From a virus: a stretch of 40,348 nt of DNA. Below, in pieces: positions 23,408-34,032 of the stretch. How positions within the stretch are numbered: position 1 is the first letter of the stretch; every line of letters begins with the position of its first letter. The stretch spans positions 1 to 40,348 of the IMG/VR virus record IMGVR_UViG_3300037235_000047, one strand, 5' to 3'. Below the pieces are notes generated by a model, which was not told the origin of the DNA, made no database searches, and worked only from the letters and a program-made list of their open reading frames with translations. The position numbers and the translations under genes were made by a program.

Positions 23408-24567
23408 CGTGGCGCATCCCCAGGCGGGATCGCGACGGGGTTGCTGGCGCCGGTAATGTCTTGCGCCAGCGGCATCAGCGGTTGCAGGACCACCGGTTCC
23501 GGTGTGAACGCCGCGGGGTCCATCATGGTCACCATGGCATGCTGGCCGTTTTCGTCGCGCAGATATTGCACCGAGGCGATCAACCACGTTGTGGTGTTGA
23601 GCTTGAGCACGGTCGCGGCGATCGGTGCCAGGTGGTTCGGCGCCCACAGCTTGCCCGCGGTATCGCGCCAGCCGTCACAGGTCACGGTGAACTGTTGCGA
23701 CAGGCCAGCGCGGCGGTTGCATTCCCAAAGCGCGCGGGCATAGGCGAGCGACACCCCGAGCTGGGTTTGTTCCGAGATAACGTAACGCTTGCGAAAGCGC
23801 GGCACGCCGTTGTCGTAAACGATCTGACCGACACCCGGCGAGTTAACCCCGGCATCGTCGCCCAGTGCCATGGTCGACAGGAAGTGCCCTTCATATTGCG
23901 AGTATCGGCCGTCCATGGAAAAGGCGACGGACCCCGCCTCGACGTTCTGACCGATCGTGAAGCCCGAGGCCATGGTCTCCTTGCCAGCTTGCGCCAGCAT
24001 CACCGAGCCGTCCGGCATGTCATAGGCGATCAATTTTGAATAACGCGTTACCCGATCGATAATCTCCCAGGCAGTCTCGCCCAGGTTGATGTTGAATTGT
24101 GGGATTTGTGCACCGGGACCGGCGACACTCTGAATGGTCACGTCGTAAGGTGCGGCGATCTTTTGCGCGATCGATAGCGCCGAGCCGCCGAGCACCTGTG
24201 TCCCTGCAGCGCGGACGGTGCCGACAAACGCGGCGCAGTCCACCAGGTCCTCGGATTTGCTGCGGCCTTGAATGCGGATGGTGTGATCCGAGCCGGACAC
24301 CGACGCGGTGTAGCGGTCGACGTAGCCGGTAATCACCAGGTCGGCGCCAATCTGCACGGTGCACGGCATGCCAGGCCGCAGGTCGACGGACGGAGTCAGC
24401 GGGAATTTTTCCGTCACCTGAATGTCGAATGAGGCGGGCACCACGCCGAGGCCACGCGTCACCGCGACACGTTGCCAGCCCCCGAGCACGGTGCCGCCCG
24501 CGGTGAGGGTGAGCGCGTCGGCGGCACCGGGCGGCGGGCCGGACACCATGCCATGCGCGTCGCTCAT
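23404..24567 (-). CDS. Mu gp44-like baseplate hub protein
   Basis: A 387-aa hub protein of the late-control-D / Mu gp44 (P) family. Typical parts are PGMPCTVQIGADLVITGYVD, then SDHTIRIQGRSKSEDLVDCA, then ETAWEIIDRVTRYSKLIAYD and GQNVEAGSVAFSMDGRYSQY, and the C-terminal block with WLIASVQYLRDENGQHA. It forms the trimeric hub under the tail tube and holds the spike. It lies in Mu-like order between the gpN-like pair and gp45, coupled on both sides by ATGA overlaps. Confidence 0.9.
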   Translation of the reverse strand: MSDAHGMVSGPPPGAADALTLTAGGTVLGGWQRVAVTRGLGVVPASFDIQVTEKFPLTPSVDLRPGMPCTVQIGADLVITGYVDRYTASVSGSDHTIRIQGRSKSEDLVDCAAFVGTVRAAGTQVLGGSALSIAQKIAAPYDVTIQSVAGPGAQIPQFNINLGETAWEIIDRVTRYSKLIAYDMPDGSVMLAQAGKETMASGFTIGQNVEAGSVAFSMDGRYSQYEGHFLSTMALGDDAGVNSPGVGQIVYDNGVPRFRKRYVISEQTQLGVSLAYARALWECNRRAGLSQQFTVTCDGWRDTAGKLWAPNHLAPIAATVLKLNTTTWLIASVQYLRDENGQHAMVTMMDPAAFTPEPVVLQPLMPLAQDITGASNPVAIPPGDAPR

Positions 24568-25424
24568 CGTTGCAGCGCCGGGAAGCTGCGGGGCAAAAAC
24601 ATCGGGTGCGGCGGATCAGCGGAGGCCACGAGCTGCGGCTCGCGCGTGGTGTCCGCGTAAAGCATCCACGCGGCCGCAAGCGACGGCATCGGCGCGCTGG
24701 TGGTCACCTCGACCAGGGCGGCCAGGTTGGCGCCGCGCACGGCCAGGTCGAGCGCGACCGCGGCGCGCGTTGCACGCAAAGCCGCAAACGTTGCATCCCG
24801 CACGCCAGAGTCCCCGGCGCGCGTGGCCTCAGCGTCGAGCGCGTTGCACACCAGGGCGCGGACGGATTGCGCGTCCTGGTAGCTGATCGGTTGATAGGTC
24901 GAGGCGGCCAGCGCGAGGGCGGCCAGGGCAGCACAGCGGCAGGTCGAGGCGATTGCAGCGCGGGCCAGGTTGGCGGTCTGGGCGAGCGGCCCACGGCCCG
25001 GAACGATGGGCTCGACCCAATTGGCCAGCGGCAGCAACAGGCGGATGGCGTCGGCAGGGTCCGCAGCAGCCCCCAGAACCGCGCCAGCGACCGCCTGCGC
25101 CGCCGTGGCGAACGCTGCGGACGTTGCGGCGGAACCGCCCCCACGCTCGGCGCTGCCCGTTGTGAGGCCCGTTGCCGCATTGGCCAGGTTGGCGACGGCG
25201 AGCTGCACGGCCTCGCGTTGCGCGATGCTGGCAGCGAGCGCGGTTGCGACGGTCGCGTGCGACGGTTGCAGGGTCGCGCGGCGGCCCATGGCATAGCGCC
25301 CGTAATACGCCCCTTGCAGCCCCGCCACGGCGGACAGTGCGCGGGTGGGATCGTCTACAGCGGCGGACGCCAGCGCGCCCCAGGCGGGCACCGCAGCGGC
25401 GGCAATGGTGCCTGCGCCGCGCAT
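24564..25424 (-). CDS. C-terminal part of DNA-circulation (Mu gpN-like) protein, separate gene
   Basis: A 286-aa, very Ala-rich helical protein in the place where Mu gpN continues (family members are usually one chain of 400-500 aa). Blocks such as PISYQDAQSVRALVCNALDA and FAALRATRAAVALDLAVRGA, then LVEVTTSAPMPSLAAAWMLY and a C-terminal FLPRSFPALQR resemble the C-terminal half of that family. It starts in a TGATG overlap with the preceding DNA_circ_N gene, so both parts may be made as two chains by re-initiation. A sequencing frameshift is a second explanation. Confidence 0.72.
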   Translation of the reverse strand: MRGAGTIAAAAVPAWGALASAAVDDPTRALSAVAGLQGAYYGRYAMGRRATLQPSHATVATALAASIAQREAVQLAVANLANAATGLTTGSAERGGGSAATSAAFATAAQAVAGAVLGAAADPADAIRLLLPLANWVEPIVPGRGPLAQTANLARAAIASTCRCAALAALALAASTYQPISYQDAQSVRALVCNALDAEATRAGDSGVRDATFAALRATRAAVALDLAVRGANLAALVEVTTSAPMPSLAAAWMLYADTTREPQLVASADPPHPMFLPRSFPALQR

Positions 25425-25978
25425 CAGTCCCAGGTCGCCGTGCTGGCCGCGAGGTCGGCGGACGAGGCGGCGTTGAGGCTGGCGGCGGCCGACGTGATGG
25501 CGTTGCCGGTGGCGATGGACGAGGCGGGAAACTGCACGTCGCCGGACACGATGAAGGCGAGCGCAATCTCCACCATGCGGCCGTGCTCGCGGCGATCGGT
25601 CACGGAAAAATCGAGTAGCACCACCTGCATGGTGCCCATCGTCGGGTGCACCAGCGCCCCAGGCCCGGCCGTTTCGCAAGCGGCAATCATGGCGTCGCGT
25701 TGCTGATACACGTCATCACCGGTGAGGTATGCCTGGACGGCGAAGCGACGGGGCAACAGGCCCAAGTCCTCGGCCCAGATCGTCGGGCGATACGGATATT
25801 CGTGCACCGCGACGCGGCGGCCAGCTTTGCATTGCGCAACATCCATGACGAAGCCGACGCCACGCCAGCTCCCCGGCTGCAATTGCAGGAACCATGCGCC
25901 GCTGCCCCAGGTAAGGCCCGAGATATCGGCCTCCAGGGCAGTCGGCAGGTTCGCGATTGCGCGCAGTAAATCGCTCAT
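25424..25978 (-). CDS. DNA-circulation protein N-terminal domain (Mu gpN-like)
   Basis: A 184-aa protein. Residues about 20-140 match the DNA_circ_N domain: GSWRGVGFVMDVAQCKAGRR, then VHEYPYRPTIWAEDLG and RRFAVQAYLTGDDVYQQRDA, then PGALVHPTMGTMQVVLLDFS. In Mu this protein (gp43/N) is a tail/baseplate protein, and the family name refers to an old proposal on DNA circularisation. The last 30 residues are Ala/Ser-rich. The gene ends by TGATG into the next one, which looks like the rest of the family protein. Confidence 0.85.
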   Translation of the reverse strand: MSDLLRAIANLPTALEADISGLTWGSGAWFLQLQPGSWRGVGFVMDVAQCKAGRRVAVHEYPYRPTIWAEDLGLLPRRFAVQAYLTGDDVYQQRDAMIAACETAGPGALVHPTMGTMQVVLLDFSVTDRREHGRMVEIALAFIVSGDVQFPASSIATGNAITSAAASLNAASSADLAASTATWD

Positions 25979-28002
25979 GCGGCGGCCAGTTGCTGGCGTT
26001 CGGTGCGCGGTGGCGCCACGTCAACGGCACCCGTTCCGACCGCGGTCACCGTGGTGTTCGGCGGCGGGTTTTGATGGGTGATCGTCACCGCGACCGAGCC
26101 GTTGACCGGCGACGGCGGCGGCGGCGCCGGCATCAGGTCGGCAGTCTGCACCGGTGCGGGCGGCGTCGCGGCGTATGTCGAGGCGTATTGCGTCGACAGT
26201 GCACCAGTCTTGGCCGCCTCGCCTTCCACGTCGCCGGGGCGGATGTAGTCGCGCGACACGATGTCGCCAGCCTGCGCGGGGGTCAGGTTGGGGTTTTTGA
26301 GTAGGTTCCCAGACCGCTTCTCGGTGTTGCGCAATTCCCAGTCTTGGAAAGCGAGCTGTTCCTCAAAGGTGGATCCCCGGATATCTTTCCCCATCACCTG
26401 GCGGAAATTCTCCTGCCGGTCAGGGTGCCATTGCATGGCGCCATACGCGGCCCCAGCGTCGCCGGTGCCTTGCGGATTGAAATTGCTTTCCCGTTGCATG
26501 CGCGCGACCAGGCCAGCCGATGCGGCGTCGGACCAACCGCGCGACTTGAAATAGTCGTAAGCCTGGCGCGCGCGTTGGTTCTGCACCTCAGCGGTCGGCA
26601 CGGCACCGGGCAATTGATACATATACCCAGGGGTCCGCATCGGTGCGGGAACGGGCGGCGGCGCCGGTTCCGCCGATACGCGTGGCCCGGTGGCCAGGCC
26701 AGCACCAGGCGCTGGCGTTGCGCCGGTATCGGGCGCACCGGCAGGGGTCGGCGCCAGAACGTTAACCATCCAATCGGGCATCCATGGCGCCCATTTTTTC
26801 AGATCCCGATTTGCGTCCGCGCCCAGCTTGGCGACGGCGCCCGACGTGCCCTTGCCCCACAGGAAGTCCTCGACCGCAGGTGTGGCGGCCTCAATGCCTT
26901 TCATCATGATGACGGCGGTGCCGAGGATCGCGGACAGGATGCCGAGCTGGCCGAGCAATCCGGACCCGCCCGCGCCAGCGACGCCAGTCCCCACGGCGCC
27001 GAACCCGAGCGCGACGCGGGCAATCGAGGCGAGCATGCCGGCGGCCCAGCGTCCGGTGAAAAAGGTCAGGACGGCGACGCCGGCCGCGGTCAAGTCGGGA
27101 TATTTGCCCACCAGGGTATCGATGCCTTGGACGATGGCAGGCGTATGCACCTTCACCCATTCGCCGGCCCATTGGACGAGGGGCGTTAGCGCCTTGGCGA
27201 TCGTGGCACCGATCTGTTGCGTGAGGTGGTCGAACCCGACACCGAGGGCGCCAAGGGCTTCGTTCCATTTTTGCGCCGCGGCGGTTTGTTCCGCGGTCAC
27301 CTGCATGTAGCCGGCGGCGTCCTTTTGGTATTGGTCCCACGTTTTGGTGCCATGGAGGAACGTCTCAAACACCTTGGCCTGTGCATCGCCCAGCGTTGCA
27401 GCGGCGACGCGGGCGCGGTCGGCGGGGTCCTTCAACTGGCCGATCTTTGTCAGCACCTCGGGCAACAGGTCGGCGGATGAGCGGAACTGCCCGTTGGCAT
27501 CGCGCAGCGCGATCCCCAGGCGGTTGAACGCGGCGCGCGCGTTCTGATCGATCCCGAGCGCGGCGTTGCGGCTGATCGTGGTCAGGGCTTGCAGCGTCGA
27601 GGTCATGTCCTCGGCACTGCCGCCGGCCAGGCGGGCCATGTCCTGCAATTCTTGCAGCTTCGTGGTGGTCAGGCCGATCCGGTCGGCGTTCTGCACCAGC
27701 GTCCGGTTCATCTCGGCAAAGGATTGCGCCAGGCGGACCATACCGGTGAGCGTGGCGGCGCTGGTGATGGTGCCGAGCACCGGGACGGATTTTGACATCT
27801 CGGTGAAAGCACCGAATGCCTGTTTGCTGATTTCGTTGAACCCGGTGGCGACGTTCTTGAGGCCCGACACGTCGACGAATTTTTGCAGGCTCTTGGCCTG
27901 ACGTTCCAGCGGCGCGCGCATTTGGACGATGCGGCGGTTGATCGCATCGATTTGCGCCGTTGCCTGGTCGACAACGGAATAAGTTACCGAATATCCGGCC
28001 AT
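25975..28002 (-). CDS. Tape measure protein with C-terminal tail lysozyme domain
   Basis: A 675-aa protein. The N-terminal 300 residues are helical with tape-measure character (AEMNRTLVQNADRIGLTTTK, LQELQDMARLAGGSAEDM). About 305-375 is hydrophobic (TFFTGRWAAGMLASIARVAL, LGILSAILGTAVIMM), as expected for a tape measure that inserts in the membrane. A Pro/Ala linker follows (415-475). Residues 478-600 form a phage tail lysozyme: AYDYFKSRGWSDAASAG, then RESNFNPQGTGDAGAAYGAM with Glu505 as likely catalytic acid. It sets tail length and opens peptidoglycan on entry. The start directly follows the chaperone frameshift stop (TAGATG). Confidence 0.9.
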   Translation of the reverse strand: MAGYSVTYSVVDQATAQIDAINRRIVQMRAPLERQAKSLQKFVDVSGLKNVATGFNEISKQAFGAFTEMSKSVPVLGTITSAATLTGMVRLAQSFAEMNRTLVQNADRIGLTTTKLQELQDMARLAGGSAEDMTSTLQALTTISRNAALGIDQNARAAFNRLGIALRDANGQFRSSADLLPEVLTKIGQLKDPADRARVAAATLGDAQAKVFETFLHGTKTWDQYQKDAAGYMQVTAEQTAAAQKWNEALGALGVGFDHLTQQIGATIAKALTPLVQWAGEWVKVHTPAIVQGIDTLVGKYPDLTAAGVAVLTFFTGRWAAGMLASIARVALGFGAVGTGVAGAGGSGLLGQLGILSAILGTAVIMMKGIEAATPAVEDFLWGKGTSGAVAKLGADANRDLKKWAPWMPDWMVNVLAPTPAGAPDTGATPAPGAGLATGPRVSAEPAPPPVPAPMRTPGYMYQLPGAVPTAEVQNQRARQAYDYFKSRGWSDAASAGLVARMQRESNFNPQGTGDAGAAYGAMQWHPDRQENFRQVMGKDIRGSTFEEQLAFQDWELRNTEKRSGNLLKNPNLTPAQAGDIVSRDYIRPGDVEGEAAKTGALSTQYASTYAATPPAPVQTADLMPAPPPPSPVNGSVAVTITHQNPPPNTTVTAVGTGAVDVAPPRTERQQLAAA

Positions 28003-28466
28003 CTATTCCGGTTTCCTTGCATCGCGCGCGGCGATACGCCTCGATTGCGCGGCCCACCACATGAGGTCAGAACCCGTCAGTCCCCAGGCATCGGTTGGTC
28101 CCCATCCCCACCATTTGGTGAGGTCGGCGACAAGTTCGGGCCAACCGGGCGGCCAAGCTCCAACAAGTTTGCCAAAAAATCGTAGGCTGCATTCACCTCG
28201 CTGTTTCGCATGCGTTCCACAATGGCGCGGTTGACGCGGGCGCCAGCGGCCACAACGGCGATTTTATACGCGGACATTTGCGCGACGGACGAGCTGCCAG
28301 GCGGCCCAGGGCCAAGCTCCTTTTCCGCGTCGCGCATGCCGCCCGAGGTCGGTTCGCGCAACAGCAGCTCCGCGTGCTCCGTGCCGCCGACCTTTACCGG
28401 CGGGTCGAGCGGCAACGTCATGGTCGCGTCGAGGCCAGGATCAGCGCCGTTGCCCTCAGTTTTCAT
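28003..28466 (-). CDS. Tail chaperone long form, made by -1 frameshift
   Basis: Reading 98 codons of the chaperone, then slipping -1 at TTTTTTG, gives a 154-aa protein. The 56-residue extension is open to a TAG at 28003-28005, which touches the tape-measure ATG. The extension is rich in Trp and has the look of known GT/E-prime C-terminal parts (WWGWGPTDAWGLTGSDLMWW, then AAQSRRIAARD). In lambda G/GT, P2 E/E-prime and Mu gp41/gp42 the long form recruits the tape measure and is made at a low ratio. The same design here is very likely, though not tested. Confidence 0.85.
28077..28466 (-). CDS. Tail assembly chaperone (Mu gp41-like), zero-frame product
   Basis: A 129-aa protein. TLPLDPPVKVGGTEHAELLL is the family signature of the Mu gp41 / P2 gpE-like tail chaperone (Phage_TAC). 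The middle is helical (SAYKIAVVAAGARVNRAIVE, then VNAAYDFLANLL), and the tail is short and Pro/Gly/Asp-rich. The ATG at 28466 overlaps the tube gene by 11 bp. It binds the tape measure during tail assembly together with the frameshifted longer form. The frame stops at 28077, whereas the -1 frame continues to 28003. Confidence 0.88.
   Translation of the reverse strand: MKTEGNGADPGLDATMTLPLDPPVKVGGTEHAELLLREPTSGGMRDAEKELGPGPPGSSSVAQMSAYKIAVVAAGARVNRAIVERMRNSEVNAAYDFLANLLELGRPVGPNLSPTSPNGGDGDQPMPGD
28173..28179 (-). other. Programmed -1 frameshift slippery heptamer
   Basis: On the coding strand TTTTTTG, read in zero frame as T-TTT-TTG after GAT (codons 96-98 of the chaperone). It fits X-XXY-YYZ with X = Y = T and Z = G. 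Downstream GGCC-rich sequence (GGCCGCCCGGTTGGCC, starting about 22 nt later) could form a stimulatory hairpin. Confidence 0.85.
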
Positions 28467-28821
28467 CGACCGAGGCCCCGTCAAATCGCACCTGGAACGT
28501 GCCTTCCGCGGCTTTCACCTCGAGCGCGGACACGCACCACATATTGGCGCCACCGATCACCTTGCCGTTGGCCAGGGCCACCAGCACTTCAACGCAGCGC
28601 ATCAGGTTGAAGTCCCCCACCAGGATGTCGCCGCTGTCGCGCAACATGCCTTCCACGAAGCCAGCGGCGGGCACCTCGGAAAAGCCGTGCACGCTGTCGA
28701 GGCCGAGCAAGGTCTCACGCTTCCATTTGACGGGCGACCAGGTGAGGTCGCTCACCAGCATATAGGCCGCGCCGTCGATTGTGATGCCGGTCACGCCGGC
28801 AAGCGGAACGCAATTCGCCAT
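28456..28821 (-). CDS. Tail tube protein
   Basis: A 121-aa protein of the contractile-tail tube family (Mu gp40 / Phage_tail_tube): GITIDGAAYMLVSDLTWSPV, then KRETLLGLDSVHGFSEVPAA, then GFVEGMLRDSGD and a C-terminal LEVKAAEGTFQVRFDGASV. It assembles into the inner tube through which DNA passes. It lies directly after the sheath gene, as in Mu and P2, and has a strong Shine-Dalgarno (AGGGAG). Confidence 0.9.
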   Translation of the reverse strand: MANCVPLAGVTGITIDGAAYMLVSDLTWSPVKWKRETLLGLDSVHGFSEVPAAGFVEGMLRDSGDILVGDFNLMRCVEVLVALANGKVIGGANMWCVSALEVKAAEGTFQVRFDGASVDEN

Positions 28822-28833
28822 TGCCTTACTCCC

Positions 28834-30312
28834 TCAGCTTTTCAGGAACTGCAACAGGATCGCCATCTGGCGGAGCTGGTTTACCAGGTCGACCGGCGCG
28901 AGGATTTTCACCAGTCCGTTTCCGGCGTTCTGCACGATGACATTTTTCGCGAACGTCGCGCTGTTCTGCACGTAGCCGGCGGCCTCAAGCGCGCGGTATT
29001 CGCTGATCACCGACGCGCGGATCAGCGGCGCACTGACGCAATTGGACCCGGCCAGGATCACCGTCGTGTCGGATACCAGCTTCTTGCGGGCATATTTGGA
29101 CAACAGATAAATGGCCAGGTCGCGCGCCACGAACATCAACCCATACATCGTTTCAACGTCGAGGTATGAATTGTCCGGCGCACCGGCGGCGTTTTCCTGA
29201 TAGGTGGTCGCCATGCGCTCGATGATCACCGAGTTATCGTCGCCAATGCGGAACGTCGACAGCCCGGAATACAACAGGGTATTGCGTTCGCCGAGCGACC
29301 AGCGGTCGGCAATCTGCGGCGCCTTCAGCGTGGTGGTGATGTATTGCAGCGGCAAGCCAGGGTCGACGCGCAGGGACGAGGCGCACCAGGCGGTGACTTC
29401 CGCGGCCCATATCCACACCGGATCGGGACTGCCCTGATACGCCATGCAGGCCATGTGCTGGTCATTGCGGGCCTCACCGAAGGCGGTCGCCTGGCCGAGC
29501 GTTCCGCGGTAGGCACAGAACCCGCCGCCATACAGCGCCTCGTTCCACGCCCAGCGGCCGGTGGCGTCGGAAAAGAATTCCTGCATGGCGTTGAGCGACG
29601 CCGTGTCGTTATACGGCAGGCCGATGAAATCGAAGGCGGTATCTAGCAGGTTGCCCAGCGCATCGGTCAGGAGCGGGTTGGCGGTGCCGTTGGCAAACTT
29701 CACCGCAACGATGGTGATCCCTGGCACCGAGTATTCGCCGCCAGCGGTGCCGAGATAGTTTAGCGTCAAGTCGATATCGTTGCCCGCCAGGCCCTTGTGC
29801 TTGGCGGTGAGGGTGACCACGCCCGCGGCGTTAGCGGCGGTGCACGGCAAGTCGAGATTCGCAGTGATCGCGTCGACCAACCCAGTCGCAACGATGGCGG
29901 CGGTATCGCCGACATAAACCGGGACCTGCACCAGGGTGCCGGCGATGTATTGGTTGACGGTGCCCGATTGCGTCGCAACGCCGGTGATCGTCAGGGTGCC
30001 GGTTGCGGCGACGCCCGCGGGGTTGTCGAGCAACGGCAGGATGTAAAGCGCGCCGAACTGGTCAATGGTCAGGTATCGCGCGGCCATTGCGGCGAGCATC
30101 GATCCCTGGCCGCAGGTTTGCAGCACCTGGACAAGCGATTGGACGAGTAGTGGCTCGCCCGGTATCGCGGTGCCAGCCGCCAGCTTTTGGCCAATCAACA
30201 GGCTGCGTTGCAGCACGGTCGCCGTGTTGGCCTGTGACGGGTCCATCTCCACGAAAACGCCGGGGACCCGGTTGGATGTCGGATAGTGGGTAAAGTTGAT
30301 TGATGCGGACAT
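28834..30312 (-). CDS. Contractile tail sheath protein
   Basis: A 492-aa sheath protein of the Mu gp39 type. INFTHYPTSNRVPGVFVEMD is the typical start, then QSLVQVLQTCGQGSMLAAMA and AKHKGLAGNDIDLTLNYLG. The subtilisin-like middle region follows (TAFDFIGLPYNDTASLNAMQ, then YGGGFCAYRGTLGQATAFGE), and a C-terminal domain with YLDVETMYGLMFVARDLAIY. Hexameric rings contract to drive the tube into the cell. It begins 3 bp after the gp38-like gene stop. This gene fixes the virion as a myovirus. Confidence 0.93.
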   Translation of the reverse strand: MSASINFTHYPTSNRVPGVFVEMDPSQANTATVLQRSLLIGQKLAAGTAIPGEPLLVQSLVQVLQTCGQGSMLAAMAARYLTIDQFGALYILPLLDNPAGVAATGTLTITGVATQSGTVNQYIAGTLVQVPVYVGDTAAIVATGLVDAITANLDLPCTAANAAGVVTLTAKHKGLAGNDIDLTLNYLGTAGGEYSVPGITIVAVKFANGTANPLLTDALGNLLDTAFDFIGLPYNDTASLNAMQEFFSDATGRWAWNEALYGGGFCAYRGTLGQATAFGEARNDQHMACMAYQGSPDPVWIWAAEVTAWCASSLRVDPGLPLQYITTTLKAPQIADRWSLGERNTLLYSGLSTFRIGDDNSVIIERMATTYQENAAGAPDNSYLDVETMYGLMFVARDLAIYLLSKYARKKLVSDTTVILAGSNCVSAPLIRASVISEYRALEAAGYVQNSATFAKNVIVQNAGNGLVKILAPVDLVNQLRQMAILLQFLKS

Positions 30313-30529: not shown

Positions 30530-33382
30530 TCAGGCGGGGCCTAAATCCTGGATCGAAACGAGTGTTCGCATGGTCGGCGCAACAGTGCCGCCAGCCCCGA
30601 CTTGCACCAGGGTGGCGGGTCCGGCGGTCACGCGAGCGTTGAGCAGCACTCGCACCGTGCCAGGCGACGCGTCGACCGCGGCGGTGAGTTTCGCCACCCC
30701 GCGAAACATGGCGGTTGTGGTGTTGGAAAATTTATAGGCGACCATGGGGGCTTCGATCAGGATGAGATTCGTTGCGTAGAGCAGCTCCCACACTGTGCCC
30801 GCAGCATCGCCGGACGCGAAAACCGGGTCGACTGTCAACAGAATGTTACGAATTCCGGTCGCAGGCATCGGGAAGTTAATATCGAGGAAAGTCACGCCAG
30901 TGTTGGTGAGTGTGACTTCGTTCGGCATGTAAACGATCGTGCGGAACGCGGACGGCGCGGCGACGGCGGCAACCGCATCGTCGACATATTGGCGGGGGAC
31001 CGCATCGGTGGCGAGCGTCGGCGCGCCCACGTTTTGAATGCGGTTGCCGACCATGGTCAACGGCGTGTTGGCCATCGCCAGCGTTGTGGTCCATTGCCAC
31101 ATGAGATTGCCCGAGATGGCAACGATCAGGGCGTTGCCAGCCGACATTAATCCGGTTGTCGGATTGCCAAGCGCCAGCGCGGGCGCGGCCAGCGAACCGG
31201 ACGGCAATTGCAGCGGGCCGAACAGTGACCCGCCGGTCAATTGCAGATAGCGGGCGTCGCCGCCGATTGGTTGCAGATAGCGGGCGTCTGCATCGGCTTG
31301 TGTCAGGGCGTCGCCGGTGACCAGGACACGGCGGCGCGTTGACGTAGTGCCGCTGTTGTCCTCGATCATCACGCCGGGATTGCCGACAGTCTGGCGCAGC
31401 ACCAGAGGCCCATCGGTGTAAAACGCGGCCATACTTTGTTGCCAGGTCAAACCTTGACTGAGGCCGGCAAAGCCGATCGCGCCATCCACGATGCCGCCGG
31501 ACAATTGCAGATAGCGCGCGTCGAGCGTCGGCAGGTCGGGGCCATGCGCGTCAACGTAACCCTTGCTCGCGGCATCGCCCGGAGCGGTCGGCGCGTCCAG
31601 ATTGGTGATCCGGTAGCCGGACATATTCAAAGTGGTCGCGAGAATCGATCCGGTGCGATTGAACAACATCACGCCGACACTTTCGTGCGCGGCAACGAGG
31701 CCCTGCGCCGGGATGCGATAAAATCCGGTGATCGCCTCCCCCACCCCCAGCGCGCAGCGGCTCGCCGTGCCATCAGGCACCTGCAGCGGGCCGGTCATCG
31801 TGTCGCCAGCGAGGGCAACGGCGCGTTCCCAGTCGCCCGTTTCAGTGCGGCCCCAGGTGCCACCGCCACCGGGGTTGAGTATGCCCCAATTCATATTCGC
31901 CCACGCACCGTTGAGGCGGCCATAAACGATCCCGTCCGAGGGTGCATCGGGCAAGCCGGGGTCGAGCGCGTCGGCATATGCCTTGTTGATCAGGTGCTCC
32001 GGTTGCGTGGCCGGCGTCGCGGCGGATATCAGACCGGTTGCGGTGATCGCGCCGCTCAGCGTCATGACGCCAGTGGCTTCATCGATCGTTAACCATTCGG
32101 CGTTGCCACGAACGCCAAAGCTGCCCAGCGCCGTTGTCCCGATCCGCCATAGCGGCGTAGCGCCGAGCTGCGGCGCGATGATGACCTCGCCGCGCGCAAC
32201 GCCGGTCGGCGCGAGGACGAAGCCAGCGCCGGCCCCCGAATTCATCACAGTGAGATTAGGTAGGGTCAGGAGTCCGGTCATCGTGTCGCCAGCGAGCGAC
32301 ACGGCGCGCGACCAGGCCCCGGTTGCCATGCGTCCCCAGGTGCCAGGTCCGATCGGCTCAATCAGCATGCCAGGCGGTATTTGCGCCCACGCGTAGTCTT
32401 GGCGGCCGTAAAGCATGCCATCGGCGGGCGCCTCGGGGATGCCGCCGCCGGTGCCAGGTGGCGGAACGGGTGCCCAGGCGGCATCGAGGCGGCCATACAG
32501 CACGCCATCGGCGGGCGCGTCCGGGATGCCGCCGCCACCGGTGCCAGGCGGCGGGACCGGTGCCCACGCGGCGTCTTGGCGGCCATACAGCACGCCATCA
32601 ACCGGCGCGTCGGGCAATCCACCGCCGCTGAATTGCGCGTCGACGTAGCGTTTCGTTGCTGCCTGCGAGGCGTCCAGAGGGTCGCTGGCGAGCATCAGAT
32701 CCCCGGCCATGCGTCCCCCAGCCAATCCGAGCACGCGCCCCCAGGCCCCGCTGGCGCGGCCATAGAAGGCACCGTCAGTCGGCGCCTCGGGGATCGCGGA
32801 CACGCGGTTGTCGACGTAGCGTTTCGTCACCGCCTCGTTGTCGGCGGCGGGGTCCGCGGCCAGCACAAGCGGACCGCCAAGGTTGCCGCCGGTGGTCGCA
32901 AGCACTTCGATCCAAAAGCCATCTTGGCGGCCATAGGCGCCGCCATCGATCGGCGCCTCTTGGATGTTTGACACGCGCGCGTCGACGTAGCGTTTCGTTG
33001 CCGCGTGCGCGGCGAGTGTCGGATCAGCGGCGAGCAACAGGGCGCCGGTCAACCGTCCGCCGCTGAGCGGCAGCACCGACGTCCAATCGGCATTGCAACG
33101 GCCATAGGCCAGGTCATCGGCGGGCGCGTCCGGCATGTAGGGGCCGCCCATCCCGATCAGCACGTCGACGTAACGCTTCGTCGCGGCCTCGCTGAGGTCG
33201 AGCGGGTCGGCATTGAGCAACAGCTTGCCGCGCATTTGAGCGCCGGCCAGGCGAACGAACGGGCCTTCGTCCAGCCGGGCTTGCAGCCGATCCATGCGCG
33301 CAATCGAGGCTTCCCAGTTGGCGCGTTGGTCCGCGGTGTAGGCGATCGGGCCGGCTGGGACGGTCGGATCAATATCGTTCAT
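30530..33382 (-). CDS. Repetitive tail fibre protein (fibre 1)
   Basis: A 950-aa fibre protein. The N-terminus (NDIDPTVPAGPIAYTAD, then ASIARMDRLQARLDE) resembles fibre 2. The body is made of the same shaft modules (GGRLTGALLLAADP, then AATKRYVDARV), plus a tandem of short units ending in AAWAPVPPPGTGGG. The last 170 residues form a separate domain (TLTNTGVTFLDINFPMPATG, then TVRVLLNARVTAGPATL), probably the receptor-binding or trimerisation tip. Its place between tail terminator and DUF2635/sheath is unusual for a fibre. ATG at 33382 in a TGATG overlap. Confidence 0.87.
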   Translation of the reverse strand: MNDIDPTVPAGPIAYTADQRANWEASIARMDRLQARLDEGPFVRLAGAQMRGKLLLNADPLDLSEAATKRYVDVLIGMGGPYMPDAPADDLAYGRCNADWTSVLPLSGGRLTGALLLAADPTLAAHAATKRYVDARVSNIQEAPIDGGAYGRQDGFWIEVLATTGGNLGGPLVLAADPAADNEAVTKRYVDNRVSAIPEAPTDGAFYGRASGAWGRVLGLAGGRMAGDLMLASDPLDASQAATKRYVDAQFSGGGLPDAPVDGVLYGRQDAAWAPVPPPGTGGGGIPDAPADGVLYGRLDAAWAPVPPPGTGGGIPEAPADGMLYGRQDYAWAQIPPGMLIEPIGPGTWGRMATGAWSRAVSLAGDTMTGLLTLPNLTVMNSGAGAGFVLAPTGVARGEVIIAPQLGATPLWRIGTTALGSFGVRGNAEWLTIDEATGVMTLSGAITATGLISAATPATQPEHLINKAYADALDPGLPDAPSDGIVYGRLNGAWANMNWGILNPGGGGTWGRTETGDWERAVALAGDTMTGPLQVPDGTASRCALGVGEAITGFYRIPAQGLVAAHESVGVMLFNRTGSILATTLNMSGYRITNLDAPTAPGDAASKGYVDAHGPDLPTLDARYLQLSGGIVDGAIGFAGLSQGLTWQQSMAAFYTDGPLVLRQTVGNPGVMIEDNSGTTSTRRRVLVTGDALTQADADARYLQPIGGDARYLQLTGGSLFGPLQLPSGSLAAPALALGNPTTGLMSAGNALIVAISGNLMWQWTTTLAMANTPLTMVGNRIQNVGAPTLATDAVPRQYVDDAVAAVAAPSAFRTIVYMPNEVTLTNTGVTFLDINFPMPATGIRNILLTVDPVFASGDAAGTVWELLYATNLILIEAPMVAYKFSNTTTAMFRGVAKLTAAVDASPGTVRVLLNARVTAGPATLVQVGAGGTVAPTMRTLVSIQDLGPA
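32404..32599. repeat. Tandem repeat in fibre 1, about 87-90 bp units
   Basis: GGCCATACAGCACGCCATC at 32491-32509 and 32581-32599, and a diverged copy at 32404-32422, mark units of 87 and 90 bp. They encode the repeated PDAPADGVLYGR, AAWAPVPPPGTGGG motif. Confidence 0.8.
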
Positions 33383-34032
33383 CAACACCACCGCGTGGTG
33401 TCATCGTCCCAGGGAACCAGCACCGCGTCCCACAGGGTCCGGTTATCGTCCCAGGTAGTGTCGCCATCGTCCCATTCGGCGAAGTCATACCAATCGGTCC
33501 GCTTGGTCAGGGTGCGGACGATTGGTTTCGGCAGGCTCACCACGATGTCGTGCAGCGGCGCCCAATCCGGATCGCGGATGTCGAGGCTGGCGCCGTCCTG
33601 GTCGCTCAGCGTCACGTCCAGCGCGAATTCCCATTGATAGAACAGGCGGGCGCGGTCGAGGTCGAGGTAATGCCCGCCAACGGTATACATGCCCCGCGGT
33701 CCGGCGCATGGGACCGGTTTCCAGTTCAACAGGCACGCATACAGCGCGGTTTGCACGTCATCGTAACCCATCGCCGGATCCTGGCCGCGGCGATCATTGG
33801 TCGCGTCGAATTCCACGATGACGGCCATGGTGGTTTGCAAGATTTGATACAGGCCCACCATGTTTTGGTTGCCAGAGCTGTCCTGGCCGATCGGCACCAC
33901 ATAGGCGGCGGGGCGCGGCATGGCGGCGTTGAAGTCCCGCAGTCCGCGGTTGAAGTCGGCGGCGCCAGCGACGCGGCCGGCGAACACCGGGCAATTCGAC
34001 CGCAGGTTGGCAATCATCAGGCCCATAAACAT
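33382..34032 (-). CDS. Tail terminator-like protein (Mu gp37 position)
   Basis: A 216-aa protein. LRSNCPVFAGRVAGAADFNR, then AAYVVPIGQDSSGNQNMVGL, then VIVEFDATNDRRGQDP and VGGHYLDLDRARLFYQWEFA match the Mu gp37-like tail terminator pattern. Such proteins cap the tail tube when it has reached its length. The C-terminal part is Trp/Asp-rich (WDDGDTTWDDNRTLWD) and seems an extra tail. Both ends overlap neighbours as TGATG, and the next gene is fibre 1, not gp38. Confidence 0.82.
   Translation of the reverse strand: MFMGLMIANLRSNCPVFAGRVAGAADFNRGLRDFNAAMPRPAAYVVPIGQDSSGNQNMVGLYQILQTTMAVIVEFDATNDRRGQDPAMGYDDVQTALYACLLNWKPVPCAGPRGMYTVGGHYLDLDRARLFYQWEFALDVTLSDQDGASLDIRDPDWAPLHDIVVSLPKPIVRTLTKRTDWYDFAEWDDGDTTWDDNRTLWDAVLVPWDDDTTRWC

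Follow-up and report, generated by a model that had tools for sequence, protein, structure and literature searches.

The question raised by this locus is whether the gene between those of the tail tube and tape measure proteins yields one protein or two. The gene was studied in a virus record of 40,348 bases (IMGVR_UViG_3300037235_000047), the whole of which is referred to here as the window. It lies on the minus strand in a tail operon with the order sheath, tube, chaperone, and tape measure, and immediately precedes the tape measure gene (Table 1). Judging from its sequence, it is almost certainly a tail assembly chaperone gene of the P2 E/E+E' type, with two products made via a programmed −1 frameshift. 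Given current knowledge of tailed phages, a feature of this known kind comes as no surprise.

Table 1. Locations of the tail genes and frameshift elements in the window, and of the replaced slip sites in three related loci.
Feature	Location	Strand	Evidence or remark
Tail sheath protein	28834..30312	−	phrog_165, E 1.6e-163
Tail tube protein	28456..28821	−	PF10618, E 5.4e-24
129-aa zero-frame product, a tail assembly chaperone of P2 E / Mu gp41 type	28077..28466	−	PF10109 Phage_TAC_7 and AF2 fold match
SD-like GAGGTG, possible stimulator	28194..28199	−	15–20 nt upstream of the heptamer; signal enriched across relatives
Candidate slippery heptamer T TTT TTG, in phase	28173..28179	−	kept as TTTTTTA/G in 67/70 loci; same as P2 site
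−1 frame extension, 56 codons and TAG, Trp-rich	28003..28173	−	phrog_10636, E 3.1e-8; homology to P2 E' / PF06528
675-aa tape measure protein that includes a tail lysozyme domain	25975..28002	−	phrog_9570, E 7.6e-69; PF18013
T TTT CTN sites	L023 7138–7150; L025 7408–7420; L081 1390–1402		

The zero frame of the chaperone gene opens with ATG at 28466 and closes with TGA (28079–28077). The gene has one X XXY YYZ heptamer only, T TTT TTG (28179–28173), which lies near the 3' end and fits the codon phase. From 28173, the −1 frame stays open for 56 codons and ends with TAG (28005–28003), which abuts the tape measure ATG at 28002. A preliminary description of this DNA had given the zero-frame stop, the heptamer, the 56-codon frame, and the contact between TAG and ATG, and all were found on the minus strand as described. 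A −1 shift at the heptamer results in a fusion product of 154 aa with the 56-residue extension GKLVGAWPPGWPELVADLTKWWGWGPTDAWGLTGSDLMWWAAQSRRIAARDARKPE. The junction predicted for standard tandem slippage is D-F-L|G-K, and the DFF-G junction suggested earlier was corrected to DFL-G. The predicted tryptic junction peptide of the 154-aa product is NSEVNAAYDFLGK, and a further predicted tryptic peptide is LVGAWPPGWPELVADLTK. From the opening of the −1 frame, 30 codons before the slip site, to extension codon 20, the window has no ATG, GTG, or TTG; plain ORF calling therefore misses the extension, as had been anticipated.

Both parts of the product were compared with known proteins. The zero-frame protein passed the PF10109 (Phage_TAC_7) cut-off of 25 with 30.5 bits (P2 E itself, 47.8 bits), a family described in Pfam as 'E, or 41 or 14'. 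Its AF2 model (pLDDT 78.8) had 'tape measure chaperone' as the best fold match (E 2.2e-4) and matched Mu FS-gp41 weakly (E 0.042). The link to P2 E rests on Pfam, since hhalign of the zero-frame profile against P2 E gave a probability of 5% and no convincing alignment. For the extension, the family profile aligned to P2 E' with a probability of 93% (E 3.3e-7), PF06528 (Phage_P2_GpE) was matched by 17 of 42 extension members (best 2.9e-6), and phrog_10636 by 41 of the 42; a Pfam search with the window's extension sequence alone gave no match. These profile comparisons identify the extension as distantly homologous to Phage_P2_GpE. It was modelled as three helices (pLDDT 78.5), and a fold search with this model returned no significant match. 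The Trp-rich character noted earlier was seen both in the window and in its relatives, with W24 and W40 invariant.

Relatives were collected from IMG/VR with the sheath (74 loci) and the tape measure (eight loci) as queries; the sheath query returned no relatives from bacterial genomes. Stop codons in the −1 frame of relatives had been named as evidence against frameshifting. Every sheath-query locus covering the region carried the extension, shifted by −1 against the chaperone frame, and no relative with a complete region lacked an open extension. In 67 of the 70 related loci, T TTT TT(A/G) was followed by a homologous Trp-rich −1 extension of 53–64 codons; the 70 include the window and a few repeat contigs, and the in-phase heptamer was TTTTTTG in 34 and TTTTTTA in 33. 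A non-redundant set of 49 loci was picked among the heptamer carriers, and the conservation rate is therefore 67/70, not 49/49. On the coding strand of these 49 loci (432,350 bases), TTTTTT[AGT] occurred 53 times, 49 of them at the slip site and 4 elsewhere. The zero-frame tail past the slip site was usually 13 codons (37/49 loci), and 31 codons in the window and one relative (L002).

Past the zero-frame stop, differences at −1-frame codon positions 1, 2, and 3 were 0.28, 0.26, and 0.50, respectively, and dN was below dS in the −1 frame for most close pairs (dN 0.077 and dS 0.90 for L026/L024); the pair formed by the window and L003 was too close to be informative. Mean column identity was 60% in the extension vs 40% in the zero-frame protein, and P8, W24, W40, and R46 were the invariant extension columns. 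T TTT TT(N) was also found in all of the named phages BZS1, phiNP, SfV, ST64B, AH07, PG1, BgVeeders33, PBb001, DVM-2008, and phiAP1, in which the −1 frame reaches near or into the tape measure start and whose records annotate the short chaperone only. By name, BZS1 is a Serratia phage, phiNP a Citrobacter phage, phiAP1 an Acetobacter phage, and PBb001 a Bordetella phage.

Three loci (L023, L025, and L081) lack the canonical site because T TTT CTN replaces the heptamer: they have GAT TTT CTC/CTA in place of T TTT TTR, with the −1 extension intact. A different mode of frameshifting may operate there, since only the P-site tRNA can re-pair on T TTT CTN; no SD-like signal was found at the three sites. 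We tentatively consider that another mode may have replaced tandem slippage in this lineage and reaches the same extension, though the odds are somewhat against it. The window itself shows no such switch.

Other features of the tail region were noted as well. In the window, the Mu N-like DNA circularisation / baseplate hub gene (24564–25978, minus strand) is split into two ORFs with the start-stop overlap TGATG, the former of 184 aa with PF07157 and the latter of approximately 286 aa. It is also split in nearly all clade relatives, usually with a short NTGA-type overlap, and unsplit in L063, L064, phiAP1, and others. Varying junctions of the tail operon contain ORFs of approximately 180–230 aa with the HNH-like motif WE[IM]DHI...CFHY[TS]NLRPLW (L020 6331–7014, L026 5699–6304, and L033 5380–5931), and gaps of similar size occur in L030, L034, L038, L039, L047, and L084. 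A Pfam search with these ORFs gave no significant match; they are possibly mobile endonuclease genes. Between the head and sheath genes of the window, an unusual location for a fibre gene, lies a gene for a 953-aa tail-fibre-like protein (30530–33391, minus strand) that repeats the unit 'ATKRYVD' and gives fibritin/fibre matches.

Possible stimulators of frameshifting were sought on both sides of the slip site. Upstream, the mean anti-SD pairing energy among the relatives was −5.79 kcal/mol vs −4.11 kcal/mol under a synonymous-codon null, a value reached in 0 of 300 draws of a test that ignores shared descent. The window's own pairing (−6.9) was not significant by itself (0.18). Across the relatives, this pairing signal supports an SD-like element ahead of the slip site. 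Downstream, RNA structure in the window was not significant at +5 to +50 (z +1.5), and RNAalifold found no shared structure in the region. A hairpin taken from the relative L039 exceeded both shuffles and slid versions in covariation (31 vs 17.9 cells; score 0.123 vs at most 0.086). With only 48% of cells pairing, and with the region coding in two frames, this hairpin would belong to some lineages at most.

Could the extension be produced without a ribosomal frameshift? Pfam and PHROGs list it as a small family of its own (PF06528, phrog_10636), as would suit a separate small gene with its own start or one reached by reinitiation past the chaperone stop. Such a gene is hard to reconcile with the start-free stretch of the window's −1 frame, and ATG, GTG, or TTG was available in 14 of the 49 non-redundant loci only, with ATG or GTG behind a good SD in a single one. 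It also leaves the invariant in-phase heptamer unaccounted for, and we consider it very improbable. The conserved run of T, six in the window vs seven in phiAP1 and ST64B, would be compatible with a frame change made by RNA polymerase through transcriptional slippage on the run, but six T is short for efficient transcriptional slippage. The upstream SD-like signal and the hairpin covariation in some relatives fit ribosomal slippage instead, and the homologous P2 site has been described as translational (PMC3091744), so that slippage by the polymerase is highly unlikely.

Nothing was found in favour of a frameshift mutation, a sequencing error, or a frame open by chance in a gene undergoing decay. 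The arrangement recurs across the 49 non-redundant loci and among named isolates, and the −1 frame is under purifying selection; this reading is ruled out by conservation, its probability being negligible. The programmed −1 frameshift in the tail chaperone, as put forward in the preliminary description, is strongly backed by the conserved heptamer, its phase, the extension, and synteny.

On sequence comparison, P2 E/E+E' stands closest among known systems. In P2, E is 91 aa long, and a −1 frameshift at TTTTTTG gives E+E' of 142 aa; no hairpin is predicted for the site (PMC3091744). P2 and the window share the identical heptamer, the −1 direction, a location immediately before the tape measure gene, a homologous extension (57 codons in P2 vs 56 in the window), and no need for a downstream hairpin; TTTTTTG was read directly in 80/80 P2-like loci, many of them near-identical. 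They differ in the zero-frame tail past the slip site (6 codons in P2 vs 31 in the window) and in the surrounding tail genes, which are of Mu/SfV type in the window, and their similarity is seen with profiles only. In SfV, ST64B, phiNP, BZS1, and phiAP1, T TTT TT(N) is likewise present, and a −1 extension missing from the annotation runs up to the tape measure gene, but the last base of the heptamer is C or T in several of them, and the extensions of SfV and ST64B are divergent.

The design had earlier been likened to lambda G/GT and Mu gp41/gp42. The lambda part holds insofar as a chaperone with a −1 frameshift extension lies between the tail tube and tape measure genes, whereas the sequences are unrelated, lambda is a siphophage, and the lambda G/GT heptamer differs from TTTTTTG. 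Mu resembles the window in the operon order (sheath, tube, chaperone, tape measure) and in the weak fold match of FS-gp41. It is the poorer comparison because Mu is reported to frameshift by −2 (PMC5009743, PMC2628397) and Mup42 is the tape measure, not an extension. No heptamer of the T TTT TTG kind was found in Mu, and the conserved extension was in the −1 frame in all relatives of the window, not in the +1 frame of a Mu-type −2 shift. The exact parallel is P2 E/E+E'.

In the proposed mechanism, most ribosomes would stop at 28077 and release the 129-aa chaperone. A minority would slip by −1 at T TTT TTG, where tRNA-Phe and tRNA-Leu would re-pair with TTT TTT, and would make the 154-aa fusion, whose C-terminal domain of 56 aa is helical and Trp-rich. 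As in the lambda model of G and GT function (PMC5009743), the shared N-terminal part may coat the tape measure protein and the extension may recruit the tail tube protein, so that the tube would polymerise around the tape measure; neither chaperone product would remain in the virion.

PHROG 10636, annotated as "unknown function", corresponds to the C-terminal half of the second chaperone, and annotation is thereby mended for a product that escapes ORF callers. The relatives form a natural set of one −1 site in which the seventh base, the upstream SD-like element, and the downstream hairpin differ between lineages, and this set is useful for learning what a bacterial −1 site needs.
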